Shown: one piece after another, positions 61 through 22,171 of the stretch
Layout: the number at the start of each line of letters is the position of its first letter
How positions within the stretch are numbered: the first letter of the stretch is position 1
Program-made: the position numbers and the translations under genes
The notes under the pieces: generated by a model
Told to the model about the DNA's origin: nothing
Database searches by the model: none
Seen by the model: only the letters and a program-made list of their open reading frames with translations
DNA from: an uncultured Neokomagataea sp.
GTDB taxonomy: Bacteria; Pseudomonadota; Alphaproteobacteria; Acetobacterales; Acetobacteraceae
Assembly: GCF_946476835.1 (NCBI RefSeq)
Contig: NZ_CAMKWA010000003.1
Coordinates: 1-64,000, forward strand
Reading direction: 5' to 3'
Length of the DNA stretch: 64,000 nucleotides

Positions 61-1231
61 GAAAGGCGGAGTTAGTGTGCGGGTCGATTTGAATAGAGTT
101 GATAAACTTGTTGATTTGATGGGTGAAATTTTAATTCTTCAAGAAGAGATAAAAAGTTCAAAAATATTGCATAATGAAAGTAATTGTTTAAAAAAACTTG
201 AATCAATCACACAAGAACTACAAGATAATATTATGTCTATGAGGGCGCACCCGATAGATTTGGCTTTTCAGAGAATGAAAAAAGTGGTGCGTGAGGCCTC
301 AAGACTAGCGTCTAAGGAGGTAGACCTTGTTCTCGAAGGAGAGGAGACTAGTGTCGATCGTTCTGTATTGGAAGCGATTATTGATCCATTAACGCATATG
401 GTGCGTAACGCTATAGATCACGGCATAGAAAACAGAGAGATTCGACTTTCTAAAAATAAAAATGAGAGAGGAAAAATATACTTACGATCATTCCATTTTT
501 CCGGAAGGATAATCGTTGAGATCGAAGATGATGGCTGCGGTTTGTCAAAAGATAATATTCGTAAAAAAGCTCTCAAAAATGACCTTATCTCTCAAAATCA
601 GGTTTTAACGGATGTTGATATATATAACTTGATTTTTGCATCGGGCTTTTCAACAGCGTCTACTGTATCGAACCTATCCGGCAGGGGGGTTGGTATGGAT
701 GTTGTTAAGCGTGAAATAGATAAAATTGGAGGTAAAATTAGTATTTTTTCTGAAGAAAATAAAGGCACAAAATTTCGTATTTCATTACCTTTAACGTTAT
801 CAGTTGTTGAGGGTCTTTTGTTTAAATCTTTAGGTAATAAATTTATTATACCGATATCTGATGTTATAGATACATTTGAGATTAATAGTAAAAATATAAT
901 TAAAAATGAAAACGAAATGTATATTTATAGGTATAGAAATGAGTACATTTCTATGTTTAATATTAATTATTGGATGGGTGGAGGTGATTTTTGTTCTAGG
1001 GTTGGTGTGTGTATACAATCTGAATATGGTTGTAAGTATATATTTTCTGTTGATGAAATAATTGATAAAAATAGATTTGTAATAAAATCCATAGAAAAAA
1101 ATTATAAAAATATTAATGGTTTTTCGGCATCAACTATTCTGGGTGATGGAAGTCTTGCCTTGATTGTTGATGTGAATTTTTTCGCAGAAAAAATTGGGCA
1201 TACTACAAAAAATAGAGGAAGTGATGAGTAA
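1..1231 (+). CDS. cheA: Chemotaxis histidine kinase CheA, 5'-truncated by the window edge
   Basis: C-terminal part of the kinase that autophosphorylates under receptor/CheW control and passes phosphate to CheY and CheB. The frame is open from base 2, so the gene starts outside the window; the GTG at 77 is an internal codon. In order: a Pro-Thr tract (bases 2-61), the P3 dimerisation helix (RVDLNRVDKLVDLMGE), the P4 ATPase with N box HMVRNAIDHG, G1 box DDGCG and glycine loop GRGVGMD, then a P5 CheW-like domain. The P1 histidine domain and P2 are not visible. The sequence is much more AT-rich than genes after 3.8 kb. It overlaps cheW by 8 bases. The family call is firm; the full architecture cannot be judged here. 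Confidence 0.93.
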   Translation, partial: PTPTPTPTPTPTPTPTPTPTKGGVSVRVDLNRVDKLVDLMGEILILQEEIKSSKILHNESNCLKKLESITQELQDNIMSMRAHPIDLAFQRMKKVVREASRLASKEVDLVLEGEETSVDRSVLEAIIDPLTHMVRNAIDHGIENREIRLSKNKNERGKIYLRSFHFSGRIIVEIEDDGCGLSKDNIRKKALKNDLISQNQVLTDVDIYNLIFASGFSTASTVSNLSGRGVGMDVVKREIDKIGGKISIFSEENKGTKFRISLPLTLSVVEGLLFKSLGNKFIIPISDVIDTFEINSKNIIKNENEMYIYRYRNEYISMFNINYWMGGGDFCSRVGVCIQSEYGCKYIFSVDEIIDKNRFVIKSIEKNYKNINGFSASTILGDGSLALIVDVNFFAEKIGHTTKNRGSDE

Positions 1232-1640
1232 ATCTTTGGTCTTTAAATGTGGTGAGTATAATTTTTCATTTGAAATATCTTGTATTAAAGAAATTAAAGG
1301 GTGGATAGAACCAACCTTATTGCCCTCTAGTGAAAAATATATTGAGGGTATAATAAATATTAGAGGGTCAGTTATACCTGTTGTAGACTTATTCGATATA
1401 ATAGGCGGGAAGGGAGATATAATAAAAAAAGCTTTGATAATTGTTTCATGTAGAGAAAAATTTATAGCTTTTTCAGTTTCATCAGTTAGCGATATCGTGG
1501 AGTATTCAAAAATAAAATCTTCACCAAATATTTTCTCGGAAAAGATAAATGTAATATATGGAATTATAGAAAGTGATGAAAGGTCAATTTTTTCTATTAA
1601 CTTATTAAAATTAGTGGAAAAGATTATTGTTAATGAGTAA
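1224..1640 (+). CDS. cheW: Chemotaxis coupling protein CheW
   Basis: Adaptor that links CheA to chemoreceptors in the signalling array. The 138-residue product is a single CheW-like SH3 domain; the typical segment with GIINIRGSVIPVVDL is clear. I chose ATG 1224, which overlaps the cheA stop (ATGAGTAA) and has GAGGA a few bases upstream; an in-frame start at 1194 would overlap cheA further and add ten unconserved residues. It overlaps cheR by another ATGAGTAA junction, so the genes are probably translationally coupled. It is very AT-rich, like the rest of the che block. Confidence 0.93.
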   Translation: MSKSLVFKCGEYNFSFEISCIKEIKGWIEPTLLPSSEKYIEGIINIRGSVIPVVDLFDIIGGKGDIIKKALIIVSCREKFIAFSVSSVSDIVEYSKIKSSPNIFSEKINVIYGIIESDERSIFSINLLKLVEKIIVNE

Positions 1641-2406
1641 TTATAACTTTGAAATTATAAAGAATTTAATTAATAAAAAATATGGATTATTTTTTCCTGA
1701 GGAAAAAAATTACCTATTTATTTCTAGGTTTGATAAGGCATTTATTGATAGTGGATTTGATTGTATTGAAGATTATATTAATAATATAATAATTAATAGA
1801 AGTGAACATCTTATTATAAATGAAATAACAACTAATTATACGTTATTTTATAGGGAGGAGCATCATTTTTCATATTTGAAAGATTTTATGAAAAGAAAAA
1901 AAGAAAACAAAGTTAGGGTATGGTCTGCGGGCTGTTCGACGGGGGAGGAGGTGTATTCAATAGCAATTTCTATTAATGATTTGTGCGTTGATAAAGGTAT
2001 AAAGTATAGTATTCTAGGTAGTGATATAAATGATAAAGTAATTAAAAAAGCATCAAAAAATAAATATTCTCTTGAGGATATAAAATATATAAAAAAAATA
2101 TATAAAAAATTTATAAATATAGATGGAGGTAATGTATCTTTTAATTATGAAATAACAAAAAATATAACCTTTAAATTGCTAAATTTAAAAAATGGGTGGA
2201 ATTTTAACTTTAAAATTGATGTTATTTTTTGCAGGAATGTAGCAATTTATTTTGATTGTGTGAGTAAAGATCAACTATGGGAGCGTCTTTCTAAAACTCT
2301 TATTGCTGGAGGTGAACTCTATATTGGTCACTCAGAAAGAATACATAATCCATCTCAATATGGATTAAAGGCTTTTGGTATCAATGCATATAGGAAAATA
2401 TCATAA
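1633..2406 (+). CDS. cheR: Chemoreceptor glutamate methyltransferase CheR
   Basis: SAM-dependent methyltransferase that methylates receptor glutamates during adaptation, opposed by CheB. The 257-residue product has the usual N-terminal helical domain and a Rossmann methyltransferase domain with the SAM-binding motif SAGCSTGEEVYS and the later motif FCRNVAIYFD. The ATG at 1633 lies in the cheW stop region; a TTG six bases earlier is less likely. Its stop overlaps the cheB start by one base (TAATG). It is strongly AT-rich with many AAA and ATA codons, unlike the genes beyond 3.8 kb. Confidence 0.95.
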   Translation: MSNYNFEIIKNLINKKYGLFFPEEKNYLFISRFDKAFIDSGFDCIEDYINNIIINRSEHLIINEITTNYTLFYREEHHFSYLKDFMKRKKENKVRVWSAGCSTGEEVYSIAISINDLCVDKGIKYSILGSDINDKVIKKASKNKYSLEDIKYIKKIYKKFINIDGGNVSFNYEITKNITFKLLNLKNGWNFNFKIDVIFCRNVAIYFDCVSKDQLWERLSKTLIAGGELYIGHSERIHNPSQYGLKAFGINAYRKIS

Positions 2407-3365
2407 TGGTTGAAAGAAAAATAAAAGTTTTAATTGTAGATGACTCTATAACGGCTCGTGCATTGATATCATTTAGCTTGAAAAAAGATGAGCGCCTGCA
2501 AATTGTGGGGGCAGCCGGAACTCCATACGAAGCGCGCGATATGATTATTAAAACATCTCCAGATATAATTACTTTGGATATAGAGATGCCTGGGATGAAT
2601 GGTCTTCAATTTTTAAAAAAAATAATGAATTTTAGGCCTATGCCAGTAGTTATCGTTTCTAGTTTTGATAAAAAACATAAAATTGCAGATGCAGCGTACA
2701 GTATGGGAGCAGTTTCTTTTTTTTCAAAAAAAAGCGGTAAGGATACATTCTCTACATTGGCTGATGAAGTTATATCATCTTATTATAGATACCAATCTAA
2801 GTATAAAATTATAGCAATTGGTTCTTCAACGGGTGGAATTTCAGCCTTAGAAGAAGTTTTGAAAAAATTACCGATACATTCTCCGCCTATTGTTATTGTT
2901 CAACATATTTTGTGTAGTTTTGCGGAAGGAATGGTAAAGAGATTGAATGAAGTTATAGATTTAAAGGTCGTTTTAGCAGAAGATGGTTTGCCTTTAGAAA
3001 GCGGTGCCGTTGTTGTCGCTCCGGGAGATCAACGGCATTTAGAAGTTATAATAAAAAATGGTACCGCTATCTGTCATTTATCGCCGGGTGATAAAGTGAA
3101 TGGTCACCGCCCATCCATAAATGTTTTATTTAACTCTATATCAACTATTTATAAGAATAATTCTATTGGAGTGATTTTAACCGGTATGGGGGATGATGGC
3201 GCTCAAGGGCTTTTAGCGATGAAGAATGAAGGGGCATTTACGATAGCGCAAGATGAGAGGACATCAGTGGTTTATGGCATGCCTAAGCAAGCTTTTGAGC
3301 GTGGTGCTGTGTGTAAGCAATTATCTTTAGATAAAATTGGCGAAGAAATTTCGCGTAATGTTTAG
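2406..3365 (+). CDS. cheB: Chemotaxis response regulator protein-glutamate methylesterase CheB
   Basis: Removes methyl groups from (and deamidates) chemoreceptors after phosphorylation by CheA, giving adaptation. The 319 residues contain a receiver domain (acidic pair DD12-13, phospho-acceptor Asp58 in TLDIEMPG, Lys108/109 region) and a C-terminal methylesterase domain. By comparison with enterobacterial CheB the catalytic triad should be Ser141 (GSSTGG), His167 (VQHI) and Asp264 (GMGDDGA), all present. Base composition becomes less AT-rich toward the 3' end. Confidence 0.96.
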   Translation: MVERKIKVLIVDDSITARALISFSLKKDERLQIVGAAGTPYEARDMIIKTSPDIITLDIEMPGMNGLQFLKKIMNFRPMPVVIVSSFDKKHKIADAAYSMGAVSFFSKKSGKDTFSTLADEVISSYYRYQSKYKIIAIGSSTGGISALEEVLKKLPIHSPPIVIVQHILCSFAEGMVKRLNEVIDLKVVLAEDGLPLESGAVVVAPGDQRHLEVIIKNGTAICHLSPGDKVNGHRPSINVLFNSISTIYKNNSIGVILTGMGDDGAQGLLAMKNEGAFTIAQDERTSVVYGMPKQAFERGAVCKQLSLDKIGEEISRNV

Positions 3366-3383
3366 TGTAGAAAGAAATATGTC

Positions 3384-3779
3384 ATGATAACTGCTGCATC
3401 AATGTCAATAATATTGGTGGATGATCAAACATCTATTCGTTCTTTGTTGAGAAATAGTCTCATTCAGCTAGGATTTGTGAATGTCGCAGGGGTAAAGAAT
3501 GGCCTTGAGGCATTGGAACATATTCGTACAAATACGGTGCATTTGATCATATCTGATTTTAATATGCCTGATATGGATGGATTAGCATTGTTGCGCGCCG
3601 TTAGGTCATCACCCAGTACGCAAAAAATTGGTTTTATTATGCTCACGGGGCATGCAAATAAAAACTTAGTACAAAAGGCGATTTCAGAAGGGGTCAATAA
3701 TTTTTTGGCCAAGCCTTTTACGACGAGTACTTTGAAATCGCGTATTGAAGCCGTTTTTGGCCCCGTGTGTGGGGGGTAG
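3384..3779 (+). CDS. cheY: CheY-like single-domain response regulator
   Basis: Stand-alone receiver domain of 131 residues that likely carries the CheA signal to the flagellar motor. Acidic pocket Asp13/Asp14 (VDDQ), phospho-acceptor Asp58 (SDFNMPDMDG), Thr88 (MLTGH) and Lys110 (AKPF) are all in place. ATG 3384 is used; ATG 3402 would start exactly at the first beta strand and is a fair alternative. It follows cheB after 18 bases and is last in the block. It is more GC-rich than cheA-cheR, so the compositional change runs through it. CheY rather than another receiver protein is inferred from context. Confidence 0.88.
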   Translation: MITAASMSIILVDDQTSIRSLLRNSLIQLGFVNVAGVKNGLEALEHIRTNTVHLIISDFNMPDMDGLALLRAVRSSPSTQKIGFIMLTGHANKNLVQKAISEGVNNFLAKPFTTSTLKSRIEAVFGPVCGG

Positions 3780-18263: not shown

Positions 18264-18278
18264 ATTGTGGAGTTGATT

Positions 18279-18659
18279 ATGTTTAAACCAAAGCGATACT
18301 CATTGGAGTTAGTGGGGGCATTGGTTTTTTATACTGCCCTGTTGTTTGCGGGCGATGTTTTGTCCTGCGTTGTGCGTCCGGTCGGTTATCTTCGGTTCGT
18401 CATCAGTTTGCTGCCGATGCTGGGTGTTATTGCTGGCGCTTGGGCTATTTTACGTGGGTTATGGCGGATGGATGAAATGCAACGGCGTATTCAGTTTGAT
18501 GCGATTGTTCTTTCTTTTCTAGGTACAGCGTTAATAACGCTTGGGTGGGGTTTTGCCGAAAGCGCTGGGGTGTCGCCCTTACGGGCATTTTATGTTTGGC
18601 CGATTATGTGTGTTTTATGGTGTATTGGCCTTGTCGTAGCGCGCTGGCGGTATTCATGA
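18279..18659 (+). CDS. Small four-helix membrane protein paired with an XRE regulator
   Basis: 126 residues with about four hydrophobic segments and a short charged loop (RGLWRMDEMQRRIQFDA) in the middle. ATG 18279 is chosen because TGGAG lies 8 bases upstream; a GTG at 18267 is unlikely. It overlaps the XRE gene by 4 bases (ATGA), a pairing seen in many bacteria for which function is not established. The charged loop could sequester or regulate the small DNA-binding partner, but this is speculation. Confidence 0.78.
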   Translation: MFKPKRYSLELVGALVFYTALLFAGDVLSCVVRPVGYLRFVISLLPMLGVIAGAWAILRGLWRMDEMQRRIQFDAIVLSFLGTALITLGWGFAESAGVSPLRAFYVWPIMCVLWCIGLVVARWRYS

Positions 18660-18844
18660 AAAACTGCATCAAGGAACTGCGTATCGCTCGAGGGTGGAGT
18701 CAAAGCGATTTAGCAGCAGCACTTTCGGTATCTCGCCAGACAGTCAATGCTATTGAGAACAGCCGCTATGATCCCAGTCTGCCGCTAGCCTTTACGGTCG
18801 CATCGGTGTTTAGCCTCAAGATTGAAGATATTTTTCATCCTTGA
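18656..18844 (+). CDS. Small XRE-family helix-turn-helix transcriptional regulator
   Basis: 62-residue protein that is essentially one HTH_3 domain: LRIARGWSQSDLAAALSVSRQTVNAIENS is the two-helix reader, followed by a hydrophobic helix and the ending LKIEDIF typical of this mini-family. ATG 18656 overlaps the stop of the membrane protein. Probable target: the GTAAA-N6-TTTAC-type repeats upstream of the pair. Confidence 0.88.
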   Translation: MKNCIKELRIARGWSQSDLAAALSVSRQTVNAIENSRYDPSLPLAFTVASVFSLKIEDIFHP

Positions 18845-19243: not shown

Positions 19244-20179
19244 TTAGCCGCCGCGTCGGTTTGGGTTGGCTGGGTCATCTAGGGCCGCTGGTGTGATATC
19301 GGCGGTGGTTAAATTGCGGGCAAAACCCATCATGAGCAGGTTTGTCCATGTCTTGGCCCATGTGTTCGTTGCGCTGACAAACTGCTTGGCTTGCGGAAAT
19401 TGAGAGAGATTTTCTTTTGGCCATGCTTGTGACGGCGCAATGATTTGGTTGGTTTGCGGGTCTAGAGGCGCGATGAGTGTGATGATACTTTCGGCTTGTA
19501 CGCTTTGTGCGTTTGCGACTGGGGCGACGTGGAACCAGCCGATATTCATCATGATCGGTGGAACGGGGTAGGCGAGGGTTCGTAAGCGATCGAAAGCGGC
19601 TTGCTCGAAAGGGGCTATATTGGCCGCTAAGACATTTAGTGCGGCGTTTGAAGTGAAGGTGCATTCTTCTACGGGGAGACCGGAAGGTGCTGCTTTCTCG
19701 CTGATATGTGCAGAGTAGTTGCGATCATCATGGCATGGTGTGTCCAAGCCTAAGACGGCTGTTGCGGGAATGGGAATTTGTGTGGCGCGCGCAATAATGA
19801 TGCCGGTGATCACGCCGCGATCCATTCGCGCCAAGAATTGTTCAGACAATTCACCATTAGGGCCATCTTGCCCAGTGAGAATAGGGTGCCAGTCTCCCGT
19901 TGGAAGAGGGATGGTGTGGCCTGCGATGTGAATGGCGCCCCGCTGAATGATGTTGGGGTCTGGAAGGCCGATTTTTCCAGTGTCATTGGGCGGCGGTGAT
20001 GAATCGTTTGCATTTGTATCGGCTGTCGGTGATGGCGGTGCATGTCCCGGCAGCCAAGGAGCGTGATGCTGTAAAGAAGCTGTTGGAAAGAAAGCCGTCA
20101 GCCCGGTGCAGGCTCCACCGAGGAGCAAGGCTGTGCGCCAAAAGGGGGCACGTTTCCAAAGGCGGGTAAAAGCGCTCAC
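19244..20179 (-). CDS. Uncharacterised single-pass exported protein, third gene of the AAA+ cluster
   Basis: 311 residues, GTG start. A basic N terminus precedes one hydrophobic segment (about residues 14-34), then a Pro/Asp/Asn-rich linker (about 45-70) and a soluble domain of about 240 residues that I do not recognise. Two cysteines (in DTPCHDD and EECTFTS) could pair in the periplasm. It follows the membrane AAA+ gene after about 120 bases on the same strand. A periplasm-facing partner of that ATPase is a reasonable inference, nothing more. Confidence 0.7.
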   Translation of the reverse strand: MSAFTRLWKRAPFWRTALLLGGACTGLTAFFPTASLQHHAPWLPGHAPPSPTADTNANDSSPPPNDTGKIGLPDPNIIQRGAIHIAGHTIPLPTGDWHPILTGQDGPNGELSEQFLARMDRGVITGIIIARATQIPIPATAVLGLDTPCHDDRNYSAHISEKAAPSGLPVEECTFTSNAALNVLAANIAPFEQAAFDRLRTLAYPVPPIMMNIGWFHVAPVANAQSVQAESIITLIAPLDPQTNQIIAPSQAWPKENLSQFPQAKQFVSATNTWAKTWTNLLMMGFARNLTTADITPAALDDPANPNRRGG

Positions 20180-20297
20180 GGTAATCTCATCTTAAATGCA
20201 GAGGTTCAAAGTGGGTCATGATCGTGGGGTATGTGTGGCGCACCATGACCTACGGAGAGCCTAGATGGCGAGGGGCATTGATATTGGGTTCGTGGTT

Positions 20298-21578
20298 CTA
20301 GGGGGCGGGGGTGGATGAGCGGGCGAGTTGGAGGTCAGCATCACGGCTGATTTCAGCGGTGACGCCTTGTTCATTATTGGTTAGGCGGACCATTTTAGCG
20401 CCTTGCTGACGGGCGACGATTAGGCTTTCGCTGATCATATCTTCAATAGAGCGCACGAGGTCACGGGCGCTGGCGCCGGTCCCAAGATTTTTCTGTTTTT
20501 GTAGGAGTTGGAATAGCAGCGCGGGATCAATGCCCCCTGTTTCAACGTGTAGGCCGTAGCTTTCGATCATGGCTTCGATTTCCAGCGCGGCAACCCGTGC
20601 AAGATCAAGCCCATGTAAGGCGCGGAAGACGAAAATTCGATCAAGGCGGTTTAAGACCTCAGGTGCGAAGCCTGCGCGTTTCAGGGCTTCGACGGATTCG
20701 GCACGCATGCGGTCGGGTTCATTTTCGAAGCGCTCGGCAATCTCTGTGAGGGCGTCTGTGGCGATGTTGGATGTGAGAATGAAGATGGCGTGAGTTGTTG
20801 AAATCTGCTCGCCGGTTGAGGCTTCAGTAATATGGCCGTCATTCCATGCTGTCAGGAATTTTTTGAAAACATCTGGGTGAGCTTTTTCGATTTCATCCAA
20901 AAGAACAACGGCATCGGGTGCGTTTTTAAGGCCGCCTGTTAGGGCGCCAAACGTATCAGAGCCGACATAGCCGCGCGGAGAGCCAAATAGGAGCGTGGCC
21001 GCGTGTGGACTCGACATCTGCGTCATGTCGTAATGCTGTAGGGGGCGCTCGGTTTGTTTGGCGATTTGTTTGGCTAAGTAAGTTTTGCCGGTGCCGGGTG
21101 GGCCAGCGAGTAAGAAAACGCCGACGGGTTTTCCCCGGACTTGTAGGGCAAGGCGGCGCCGTAACTGCTGGGCGATATCTTCACAAACACGATCTTGGCC
21201 AATCACGCGTGCGCGGAGCGAGGCTGCGAGCTCTTCAGCGTCAATAACGGTTTCACGTTGTTCGCGTGCCATCATTTCTTCGAGGGCTCCGCGATTGGTG
21301 AGGCGGCTGAGGATGTCCATGAGGAAGCCTTTCCTGCGGCGAAGGCCTTTGCGGGCCAATGATTCAGCAGATGTTTCGTAAAGAAGGCCAGCAATGGCCA
21401 TGAAGGTGCCTAGTCCTGCAACGAAGGGGAAGGCGGGGCGCAGCCATTCAAAGGCGTGCTCTAATCCTGCGAGCGACAGGTGCAGCATGACTGCAACCTG
21501 CACGACGGCAAGGATCAAGAACACGGCCATCATGAGTGGCATGGCGCGGTTGAGGGCGGGAATGAGGGAGCGGAACAT
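20298..21578 (-). CDS. Membrane-anchored ClpB/ClpA-like AAA+ ATPase
   Basis: 426 residues. Two hydrophobic segments (about 12-35 and 48-67) are followed by a basic stretch and one AAA+ module of the Clp/Hsp100 second-domain type: Walker A GPPGTGKT (159-166), pore-loop-like GSPRGYVGSD (199-208), Walker B VVLLDEIEKAH (224-234), sensor 1 LTSN (268-271), arginine finger in NRLDR (310-314) and sensor 2 GASARD (368-373). All catalytic elements look intact. There is no Clp N domain, no first AAA+ domain and no peptidase. Hsp100 proteins remodel or unfold proteins; membrane tethering suggests a membrane-protein substrate. Middle gene of a three-gene minus-strand cluster. Confidence 0.88.
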   Translation of the reverse strand: MFRSLIPALNRAMPLMMAVFLILAVVQVAVMLHLSLAGLEHAFEWLRPAFPFVAGLGTFMAIAGLLYETSAESLARKGLRRRKGFLMDILSRLTNRGALEEMMAREQRETVIDAEELAASLRARVIGQDRVCEDIAQQLRRRLALQVRGKPVGVFLLAGPPGTGKTYLAKQIAKQTERPLQHYDMTQMSSPHAATLLFGSPRGYVGSDTFGALTGGLKNAPDAVVLLDEIEKAHPDVFKKFLTAWNDGHITEASTGEQISTTHAIFILTSNIATDALTEIAERFENEPDRMRAESVEALKRAGFAPEVLNRLDRIFVFRALHGLDLARVAALEIEAMIESYGLHVETGGIDPALLFQLLQKQKNLGTGASARDLVRSIEDMISESLIVARQQGAKMVRLTNNEQGVTAEISRDADLQLARSSTPAP

Positions 21579-21592
21579 TTAAGATGGCCTCG

Positions 21593-22171
21593 TCATTGGA
21601 CGATAACGCCAAGTTCAATGGCTTGGTTCAGCCCGGTTAAGGAAGGGAGGGCTTGTGGGCCAAGGGCCGTCATAGCGATGATCGACAAAAGCGCATTATG
21701 TGGCGGTGTGATGGGGGTGATAGTGACGGCCCCTGCGGTGGTGATAGGGAGAAGAATGGGTTGAAATGTACCGCTTAAGATAATGCGTTGGGTGATTCCT
21801 GCGCTGGTAACGTCGATGATCTGGCCGGGTGTGCCTGCATTATCGAGGAGGGGGAGTTGTGCAAGGCGCATGTCTCCACGTTGTAAGGCCGCCATGATTT
21901 TTGAACGTGTTGCAGGGTCAAAAGGGGATTGTTCAAGTGCTTTTGGGGCTTGGTCCATGGAAAGCATGGAGAGTTGAGTGGCTGCTTGTAGAGGAGGACG
22001 CTGAGGAGCGGTGTGTGTGTGCTCAGTGCTTGGTTGGTGTTGTGTGTATGCATAAAACCCGCCGCCGAGCGCGAAAATGGACGCTAAGCAGAGTGTAAGA
22101 AGCCCCGTATTTGCTGTGTGCTGAGCGCGGGGTTTCTGCAGTTCTGGCTGAGGAGGTGGGTGAGTTGTCAT
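21593..22171 (-). CDS. Uncharacterised single-pass membrane protein, first gene of the AAA+ cluster
   Basis: 192 residues: a short Pro/Gln-rich cytoplasmic start, one membrane helix (about 22-43, LLTLCLASIFALGGGFYAY) and an extracytoplasmic part of about 150 residues, with an LQRGDMRLAQLPLL segment and two beta-rich stretches containing ILSGTFQPILLP and AVTITPITPP. No family recognised. It ends 14 bases before the AAA+ gene and has a similar anchor plus external domain layout to the third gene, which suggests the three proteins form a membrane complex. Confidence 0.72.
   Translation of the reverse strand: MTTHPPPQPELQKPRAQHTANTGLLTLCLASIFALGGGFYAYTQHQPSTEHTHTAPQRPPLQAATQLSMLSMDQAPKALEQSPFDPATRSKIMAALQRGDMRLAQLPLLDNAGTPGQIIDVTSAGITQRIILSGTFQPILLPITTAGAVTITPITPPHNALLSIIAMTALGPQALPSLTGLNQAIELGVIVQ

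Follow-up and report, generated by a model that had tools for sequence, protein, structure and literature searches.

A 64,000-nucleotide stretch from an uncultured Neokomagataea sp. (contig NZ_CAMKWA010000003.1, positions 1 to 64,000 of the forward strand; hereafter the window) carries a three-gene unit on its minus strand, in which the gene for a membrane-anchored ATPase of the Hsp100 type lies between genes for two predicted single-pass membrane proteins, here called C (upstream) and A (downstream). Comparison of the unit across acetic acid bacteria (AAB) showed that C and the motor motifs of the ATPase are missing from the same six genomes, all of which retain A, so that C appears tied to ATPase activity and A appears to go with the ATPase as a scaffold. 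An earlier interpretation made from the letters of the window (the sequence-only reading) had pictured an ATPase with two equal partners, and this symmetry did not survive the comparison. We read the unit as a three-subunit inner-membrane Hsp100-type remodeller of AAB, with A as a constitutive subunit and C as a client or force transmitter, a reading that seems plausible to us though somewhat short of probable.

C and the motor motifs of the ATPase are absent together

The survey took in 62 loci, those of 61 genomes of the family Acetobacteraceae and that of the window. Two loci cut by contig ends (G457 and G610) were not judged for C, leaving 60 that could be assessed. In 54 of these, C is present and the Walker A, pore loop, Walker B, sensor-1 and arginine finger motifs of the ATPase are canonical or near-canonical, the near-canonical cases being G456 (GFVG) and G605 (GAPGTGKT and GYIG; its match for C is weak, at E = 1.2e-5). 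The remaining six (G467, G475, G521, G539, G561 and G603) have no C, and in these same six, and only these, the pore loop, an intact Walker B motif and the Walker A threonine are all gone. In five of the six, about 160-270 bp separate the rimP match from that of the ATPase, too little room for C. A is full-length in every one of them, with its tail motif and both conserved cysteines. Three of the 54 loci are damaged, with an interrupted C in G506, an ATPase frame broken near residue 343 in G568, and breaks in both A and the transmembrane (TM) region of the ATPase in G530.

In the one pair tested, G561 and G603, the ratio of nonsynonymous to synonymous substitution rates (dN/dS) was 0.057 for the disabled ATPase, 0.058 for A and 0.034 for NusA, which points to purifying selection and argues that the disabled ATPase of these two genomes is a maintained protein and not a pseudogene. 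Counted against 51 intact rows (G530, G568, G605 and G610 left out), the six disabled ATPases keep 4-21 of 45 conserved positions from the pore loop to Walker B, as against 14-18 of 22 for the N-linker and 4-6 of 7 for the first TM helix. Genome size is disfavoured as the sole cause of the losses: the six genomes measure 1.9-2.4 Mb, and seven others of 1.9-2.2 Mb (G438, G441, G454, G523, G573, G613 and G644) retain the whole unit, its motifs canonical.

A quick tree built from NusA, for the 47 loci that have it, showed four changes and gave three independent pairs on supported branches, with C concordant in all three. Two contrasts fall within one genus code, pairing G438 (intact) with G521 and G506 with G561/G603. 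When G506 is scored as C-less, concordance becomes two of three, with one pair showing no difference.

Architecture of the three proteins

The sequence-only reading described a single AAA+ module of the ClpB second-domain type, with all catalytic motifs and two membrane helices, and Pfam, NCBIfam, motif and hydropathy analyses all agreed with that description. The ATPase matches Pfam AAA_2 at E = 5.8e-36, and its best NCBIfam matches are the second-module stretches of ClpB, ClpA and ClpV. Besides the motifs in Table 1, it has sensor-1 N271, arginine finger R311 and sensor-2 R372, and we take all of these motifs to have the roles they have elsewhere in the family. A short loop joins the two TM helices. 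R3 and R11 precede the first helix and RKGLRRRKG follows the second, so both ends of the protein and its AAA+ module should face the cytosol. Neither an [IVL]G[FLYM] tripeptide nor HExxH occurs in the 426 residues, and the ATPase thus bears no sign of a link to a protease; ClpA of the same genome has VGF, presumably its docking tripeptide, ahead of its PEFRNRLD stretch. These motifs fit a tethered Hsp100-type machine. ATPase identity is 72-86% in the 18 aligned AAB rows from outside Neokomagataea.

Table 1. Features of the C-ATPase-A unit in the window; residue numbers refer to each protein.
Feature	Position	Strand	Description and basis
Gene C (C_up)	21593..22171	-	192 aa; predicted cytosolic proline-rich N-tail, one TM helix, beta-rich extracytoplasmic domain; open reading frame (ORF) and AlphaFold2 (AF2) model
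TM helix of C, residues 23-41	22049..22105	-	Kyte-Doolittle window 1.72; low AF2 confidence in this stretch
Predicted periplasmic beta-rich domain of C, residues 61-191	21599..21991	-	AF2 model
ATPase gene	20298..21578	-	426-aa membrane-anchored AAA+; ORF, Pfam AAA_2, ClpB/ClpA second-module matches
TM helix 1 of ATPase, residues 14-32	21483..21539	-	Kyte-Doolittle 2.61
TM helix 2 of ATPase, residues 49-67	21378..21434	-	Kyte-Doolittle 1.73
Single AAA+ module and small domain, residues 109-404	20367..21254	-	Alignment with second modules of ClpB and ClpA of the same genome
Walker A GPPGTGKT, residues 159-166	21081..21104	-	Motif check of loci
Pore loop GYVG, residues 203-206	20961..20972	-	ClpB/ClpA alignment and motif check
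Walker B VLLDE, residues 225-229	20892..20906	-	Motif check of loci
Gene A (A_dn)	19244..20179	-	311 aa, GTG start; one TM helix between a predicted cytosolic tail and an extracytoplasmic domain that has two conserved Cys; ORF and AF2 model
Tail motif LWKRAPFWR of A, residues 7-15	20135..20161	-	Among the most constant parts of A
Helix of A (TM anchor), residues 12-30	20090..20146	-	AF2 helix
Extracytoplasmic domain of A, residues 66-300	19280..19984	-	Has relatives among exported proteins with no ATPase alongside, in this and other alphaproteobacterial families

The three ORFs run in the order C, ATPase, A, and the flanking genes had been described as encoding single-pass proteins whose external domains are of no recognised fold. 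Hydropathy, AF2 models and library and fold searches upheld this as a prediction of topology for both A and C. The AF2 model of C (mean predicted local distance difference test score, pLDDT, 78.4) consists of strands and two helices, with block means of 81-96 over residues 61-192, and it places two further hydropathy-flagged stretches, at 130 and 160, inside the folded domain. Outside Neokomagataea, C identity falls at 25-49%. The AF2 model of A has a mean pLDDT of 84.5, and a hydropathy-flagged stretch at 127 is likewise part of its folded domain. The N-terminus of A could in principle be a signal peptide; the near-invariant tail ahead of the helix argues for an anchor instead. Among the 28 rows inspected from the 62 loci, LW and WR of this tail occur in all 28 and the full LWxRAxxWR in 27, G610 being the variant, and C149 and C173 are invariant in a 35-row alignment.

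Neither A nor C of the window has a significant match in Pfam, NCBIfam, PHROGs or PADLOC. When 35 members of each family were compared with Pfam, only scattered weak matches appeared, the best of them, each from one or two members, being DUF7617 (0.0081) and WD_LRWD1 (0.009) for C and Amelotin (0.013) for A. Profile searches of PDB sequences gave four matches for C at E = 0.8-0.96 and none for A, and neither AF2 model matched a PDB fold at E <= 0.001. The best fold match of C, MmpS5 (8em5; 4.0e-3, TMt 0.45), and those of A to 3lyd (9.0e-3), Tsi3 (0.13) and Mog1 (0.14) were too weak to be used as assignments.

The periplasmic domain of A also occurs apart from the unit. It is related to exported proteins at four loci (L193-L196), none of them beside an ATPase and two of them in genomes that carry the unit elsewhere as well (G369 and G497), and A-like exported domains, likewise with no ATPase alongside, were found in 7 further genomes of 190 in the class. 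At L195 (4078-5550; genome G469, with no ATPase hit) an A-like domain lies behind a weak ClpP-related match (NF045542, 7.4e-4, far below cut-off). At L196 (3705-6166), three exported A-like domains stand in tandem; they belong to the stand-alone members of a domain family that appears to be undescribed. At L265 (1318-3624) an A-like exported protein is followed by a gene that by eye resembles a two-partner-secretion outer-membrane transporter.

Distribution and gene order

A scan of genome contigs that started from the ATPase gave 60 loci, one of which (L093, Nitrospiraceae, AAA+ part only) was set aside. The other 59 are AAB loci spanning Neokomagataea, Gluconobacter, Gluconacetobacter, Acetobacter, Asaia, Saccharibacter, Novacetimonas, Ameyamaea and Brytella, and all 59 have C, ATPase and A in this order; the ATPase served to find the loci, so what is shown is that C and A are there. 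Imperfect copies comprise a shortened C (L079), a shortened ATPase (L090) and an A that runs off its contig (L070). The stop of C overlaps the start of the ATPase gene by 4 nt in many loci, and the gap between the ATPase and A genes is 3-4 nt in Gluconobacter.

Profile searches of 249 family genomes matched the ATPase in 60 (E <= 1e-60), A in 61 (E <= 1e-5) and C in 52 (E <= 1e-4), and the other family genomes had no ATPase match at E <= 1e-60. By profile, A occurs in 57 of the 60 genomes that have the ATPase, and a further check showed A in the remaining three (G568, G605 and G610). Four genomes are positive for A without an ATPase match: the ATPase of G467 is degenerate, the locus of G457 is cut by a contig end, and G420 and G469 have nothing but stand-alone A-like domains. 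At class level the ATPase was matched in 3 of 385 genomes (E <= 1e-50), that of the window, another of the family and one with the match inside an 868-aa frame of ClpB size, and at phylum level in 2 of 398 (E <= 1e-52), both family members. The unit is rare outside the family at these cut-offs, which strongly degenerate ATPases may escape, as that of G467 did at 1e-60. The 59 loci, the family profiles and the 62-locus survey bear out the expectation that the flanking genes co-occur with the ATPase across Acetobacteraceae, and within the libraries searched (Pfam, NCBIfam, PHROGs, PADLOC and PDB) no homologue turned out to be assigned to a known system. Searches of a collection of open-access papers listed no description of this ATPase.

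In the window, the unit is divergent from rimP-nusA-infB, and rimP and nusA lie nearby in 47 of the 62 loci. The other 15 have no rimP/nusA match, some owing to contig ends. An all-versus-all comparison of ORFs of at least 120 codons in 14 of these 15 found that the only families present in at least 4 loci were the three unit genes and overlapping frames; no additional gene lies near the unit in at least 4 of the 14. Since the three genes alone are widely shared there, the unit is kept in other surroundings. Three of these loci from one genus code (L201, L234 and L249) have some neighbours in common.

A mobile or phage origin of the unit was rejected on scans of plasmids, phages and viral contigs. 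Among 2129 plasmid records with a match, a single Microvirga record covers at least 80% of the ATPase, and none of 146 phage records does. In viral contigs, none of the best 80 of at least 483 ATPase relatives begins before query residue 68, a further search gave one match, to the AAA+ part, and no relative of A was found. A tblastn search with A gave no plasmid match, although a short Microvirga ORF is detectable by profile.

The Microvirga relative is encoded on plasmid pMVF16-3 of Microvirga sp. VF16 (WP_203447015.1, annotated solely as an AAA family ATPase) and has 45% identity over residues 20-403, TM region and catalytic motifs included, making it the one relative found elsewhere whose match takes in the TM region. 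After its gene comes an unannotated 64-aa ORF (L034, 19199-19393) that corresponds to the tail and TM helix of A only, with no A periplasmic domain. This ORF ranks first of 894 against the A profile (E = 1.2e-7), has the tail LWNEASVWR, and is matched by no other plasmid record.

The closest relatives of the window are Neokomagataea, at 97% ATPase identity in the genome-contig scan. Against two of them, dN/dS was 0.025-0.036 for the ATPase, 0.085-0.088 for A and 0.12 for C, with dS near or above 1 in some of the comparisons. A promoter and terminator scan showed no enrichment over shuffles, and the repeats found are short two-copy matches. Between A and the amino-acid ATP-binding cassette (ABC) genes, positions 18267-18844 hold a gene for a small membrane protein and an HTH_3 regulator; the pair is matched in N. 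anthophila (L035) and not in N. thailandica (L036), so it is probably a recent insertion or loss. Positions 77-3779 hold a chemotaxis-type run of genes that are CheA-, CheW-, CheR-, CheB- and CheY-like by eye. G+C content is 31-36% in the first 4 kb and about 50-57% across the rest of the window; the chemotaxis-type block looks horizontally acquired.

Proposed mechanism and alternatives

In the mechanism we propose, the two-helix hairpin would hold the ATPase and present a ring of the ClpB-D2 type to the cytosol. A would be a constitutive subunit, its LWxRAxxWR tail and TM helix docking on the TM hairpin and N-linker of the ATPase and its two-cysteine domain placed in the periplasm. The A tail persists beside disabled ATPases, so its partner is probably the retained TM/linker part and not the pore. 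ATP-driven pulling would act on C as a client, or through it as a force transmitter: the GYVG pore loop may grip the unstructured, proline-rich cytosolic N-tail of C, and on the periplasmic side the beta domain of C would be shifted, pulled out or remodelled. A motor deprived of C would be useless and would decay to a scaffold for A. We infer ring assembly, tail engagement, direct contacts, force direction, the loss of hydrolysis in disabled forms and the client role of C. A more specific version, which we hold more tentatively, is a membrane-spanning machine of the Hsp100 clade that carries ATP-driven force across the inner membrane to C, its dedicated client in the periplasm, with A as a constitutive receptor subunit, and that became a non-hydrolysing scaffold after loss of the client in about three or more lineages.

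Several observations weigh against the remodeller model. All six disabled ATPases have the Walker A lysine, G521 has the sensor-1 asparagine, and G521, G561 and G603 have the arginine finger, so nucleotide binding may persist. Decay also reaches beyond the catalytic core, as only 4-6 of 11 juxtamembrane and 4-10 of 15 C-terminal (residues 367-404) conserved positions are kept. G506 combines intact ATPase motifs with a C that contains an in-frame stop, and could be an intermediate, an assembly error or an exception; barring an assembly error, it would mean that C is lost first. At locus L206 (G530), A and the TM region of the ATPase lie in several broken frames, with C and the AAA+ module open, in what looks like decay of the unit, so A is not always the survivor. 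A sign test on the three supported contrasts gives p = 0.25, and with only three it cannot reach significance; the long branches of G475 and G539 on the NusA tree make their placement unsure. The N-tail of C is poorly conserved, which is unusual for a specific engagement tag, and the Microvirga ATPase keeps its motifs with no detectable C (best match E = 1.2).

The genetic pattern supports C as client and C as activator alike. An activating or regulating C, comparable to LAP1/LULL1 for torsin, with another membrane protein as client and the unit as a general dislocase or quality-control device of the inner membrane, is possible though on the whole doubtful. It predicts the same joint loss of C and the catalytic motifs, it suits the compact extracytoplasmic domain that AF2 gives C, and the far higher conservation of the ATPase (72-86%, as against 25-49% for C) fits a motor with a general client. 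The ATPase nevertheless has its own R311 in all 54 loci with C, unlike torsin, whose finger is supplied by the activator, and one would not expect a dislocase of general use to be disabled time and again in clusters that are otherwise retained. The pattern disfavours A as the pulled substrate. That the ATPase extracts or remodels A via the LWxRAxxWR tail, with C an accessory, is improbable: few elements of the two partners are as constant as the tail, which can still be made out in the Microvirga ORF without the rest of A, but the six genomes with disabled ATPases keep both the tail and full-length A, so constraint on the tail there does not come from the pore.

We give only a slim chance to the view that there is no physical machine, and that genes of unrelated roles are neighbours by vertical descent beside rimP-nusA. 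The nearness of rimP and nusA in most loci, and of amino-acid ABC genes in most rows listed, would suit it, yet the three genes stay adjacent where rimP and nusA are missing and nothing else is widely shared, the starts and stops of C and the ATPase overlap in many loci, and C and the ATPase motifs are absent together. An anti-phage defence unit around a single-module Clp-like ATPase, like PADLOC DolB or PDC-M37B, is disfavoured and seems very improbable indeed, since the ATPase matches to PDC-M37B (1.1e-25) and DolB (4.5e-21) are limited to residues 94-279 of the AAA+ part, neither A nor C of the window matches any model in PADLOC, and the chromosomal neighbourhood is fixed in most loci.

Relation to known AAA+ systems

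The ATPase shares its AAA+ subtype, GYVG pore loop and Walker, sensor and finger motifs with the second module of the Hsp100/Clp proteins ClpB, ClpA, ClpE and ClpC. Unlike them, it consists of a single module with two TM helices and lacks the N-domain, the M-domain and a ClpP-type tripeptide. It differs from the ClpB disaggregase in its one Walker A/B set and in that its matches to ClpB profiles, and to ClpB from the same genome, are confined to the last module, and from the ClpP-partner unfoldases ClpA, ClpX and ClpC in lacking the [ILV]GF/L docking tripeptide. The Msp1/ATAD1 dislocases are also membrane-tethered single AAA+ rings that face the cytosol, with no known protease; they have a single TM helix, are not known to have operon partners and belong to another AAA+ clade.

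FtsH is anchored by a hairpin, has single-pass partners and belongs to a different AAA+ clade. The ATPase resembles it in having two N-terminal TM helices before the AAA+ module and differs in having no M41 metalloprotease HExxH. FtsH with HflK/HflC (PMC12048511) offers an analogous arrangement, a membrane-anchored cytosolic AAA+ protein with partners that reach into the periplasm. No SPFH/Band 7 match was found in Pfam for 35 rows each of A and C, in contrast to HflK/HflC. Torsin is luminal to the endoplasmic reticulum (ER), has no known TM-spanning anchor and depends on its activator for the arginine finger. The ATPase has a weak Pfam Torsin match (1.5e-5, below cut-off). Torsin with LAP1/LULL1 is a single Clp/HSP100-type module with membrane-protein activators (PMC4999309). 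The unit differs from this ER system in the two TM helices and own R311 of the ATPase, and A and C match no LAP1/LULL1-like family in Pfam. Because defining features of both FtsH-HflKC and torsin-LAP1 are lacking, the unit is placed among membrane-anchored AAA+ remodellers as a variant of its own, and by analogy both systems are useful models of how it may work.

Bacterial AAA+ remodelling of membrane proteins is thought of mainly as the work of FtsH. An Hsp100-type ATPase that is conserved, membrane-anchored and apparently free of a protease, and that has partners of its own, would solve the task separately from FtsH, and the natural series of disabled motors in AAB suggests which of the two partners depends on ATP hydrolysis and which on the scaffold alone.

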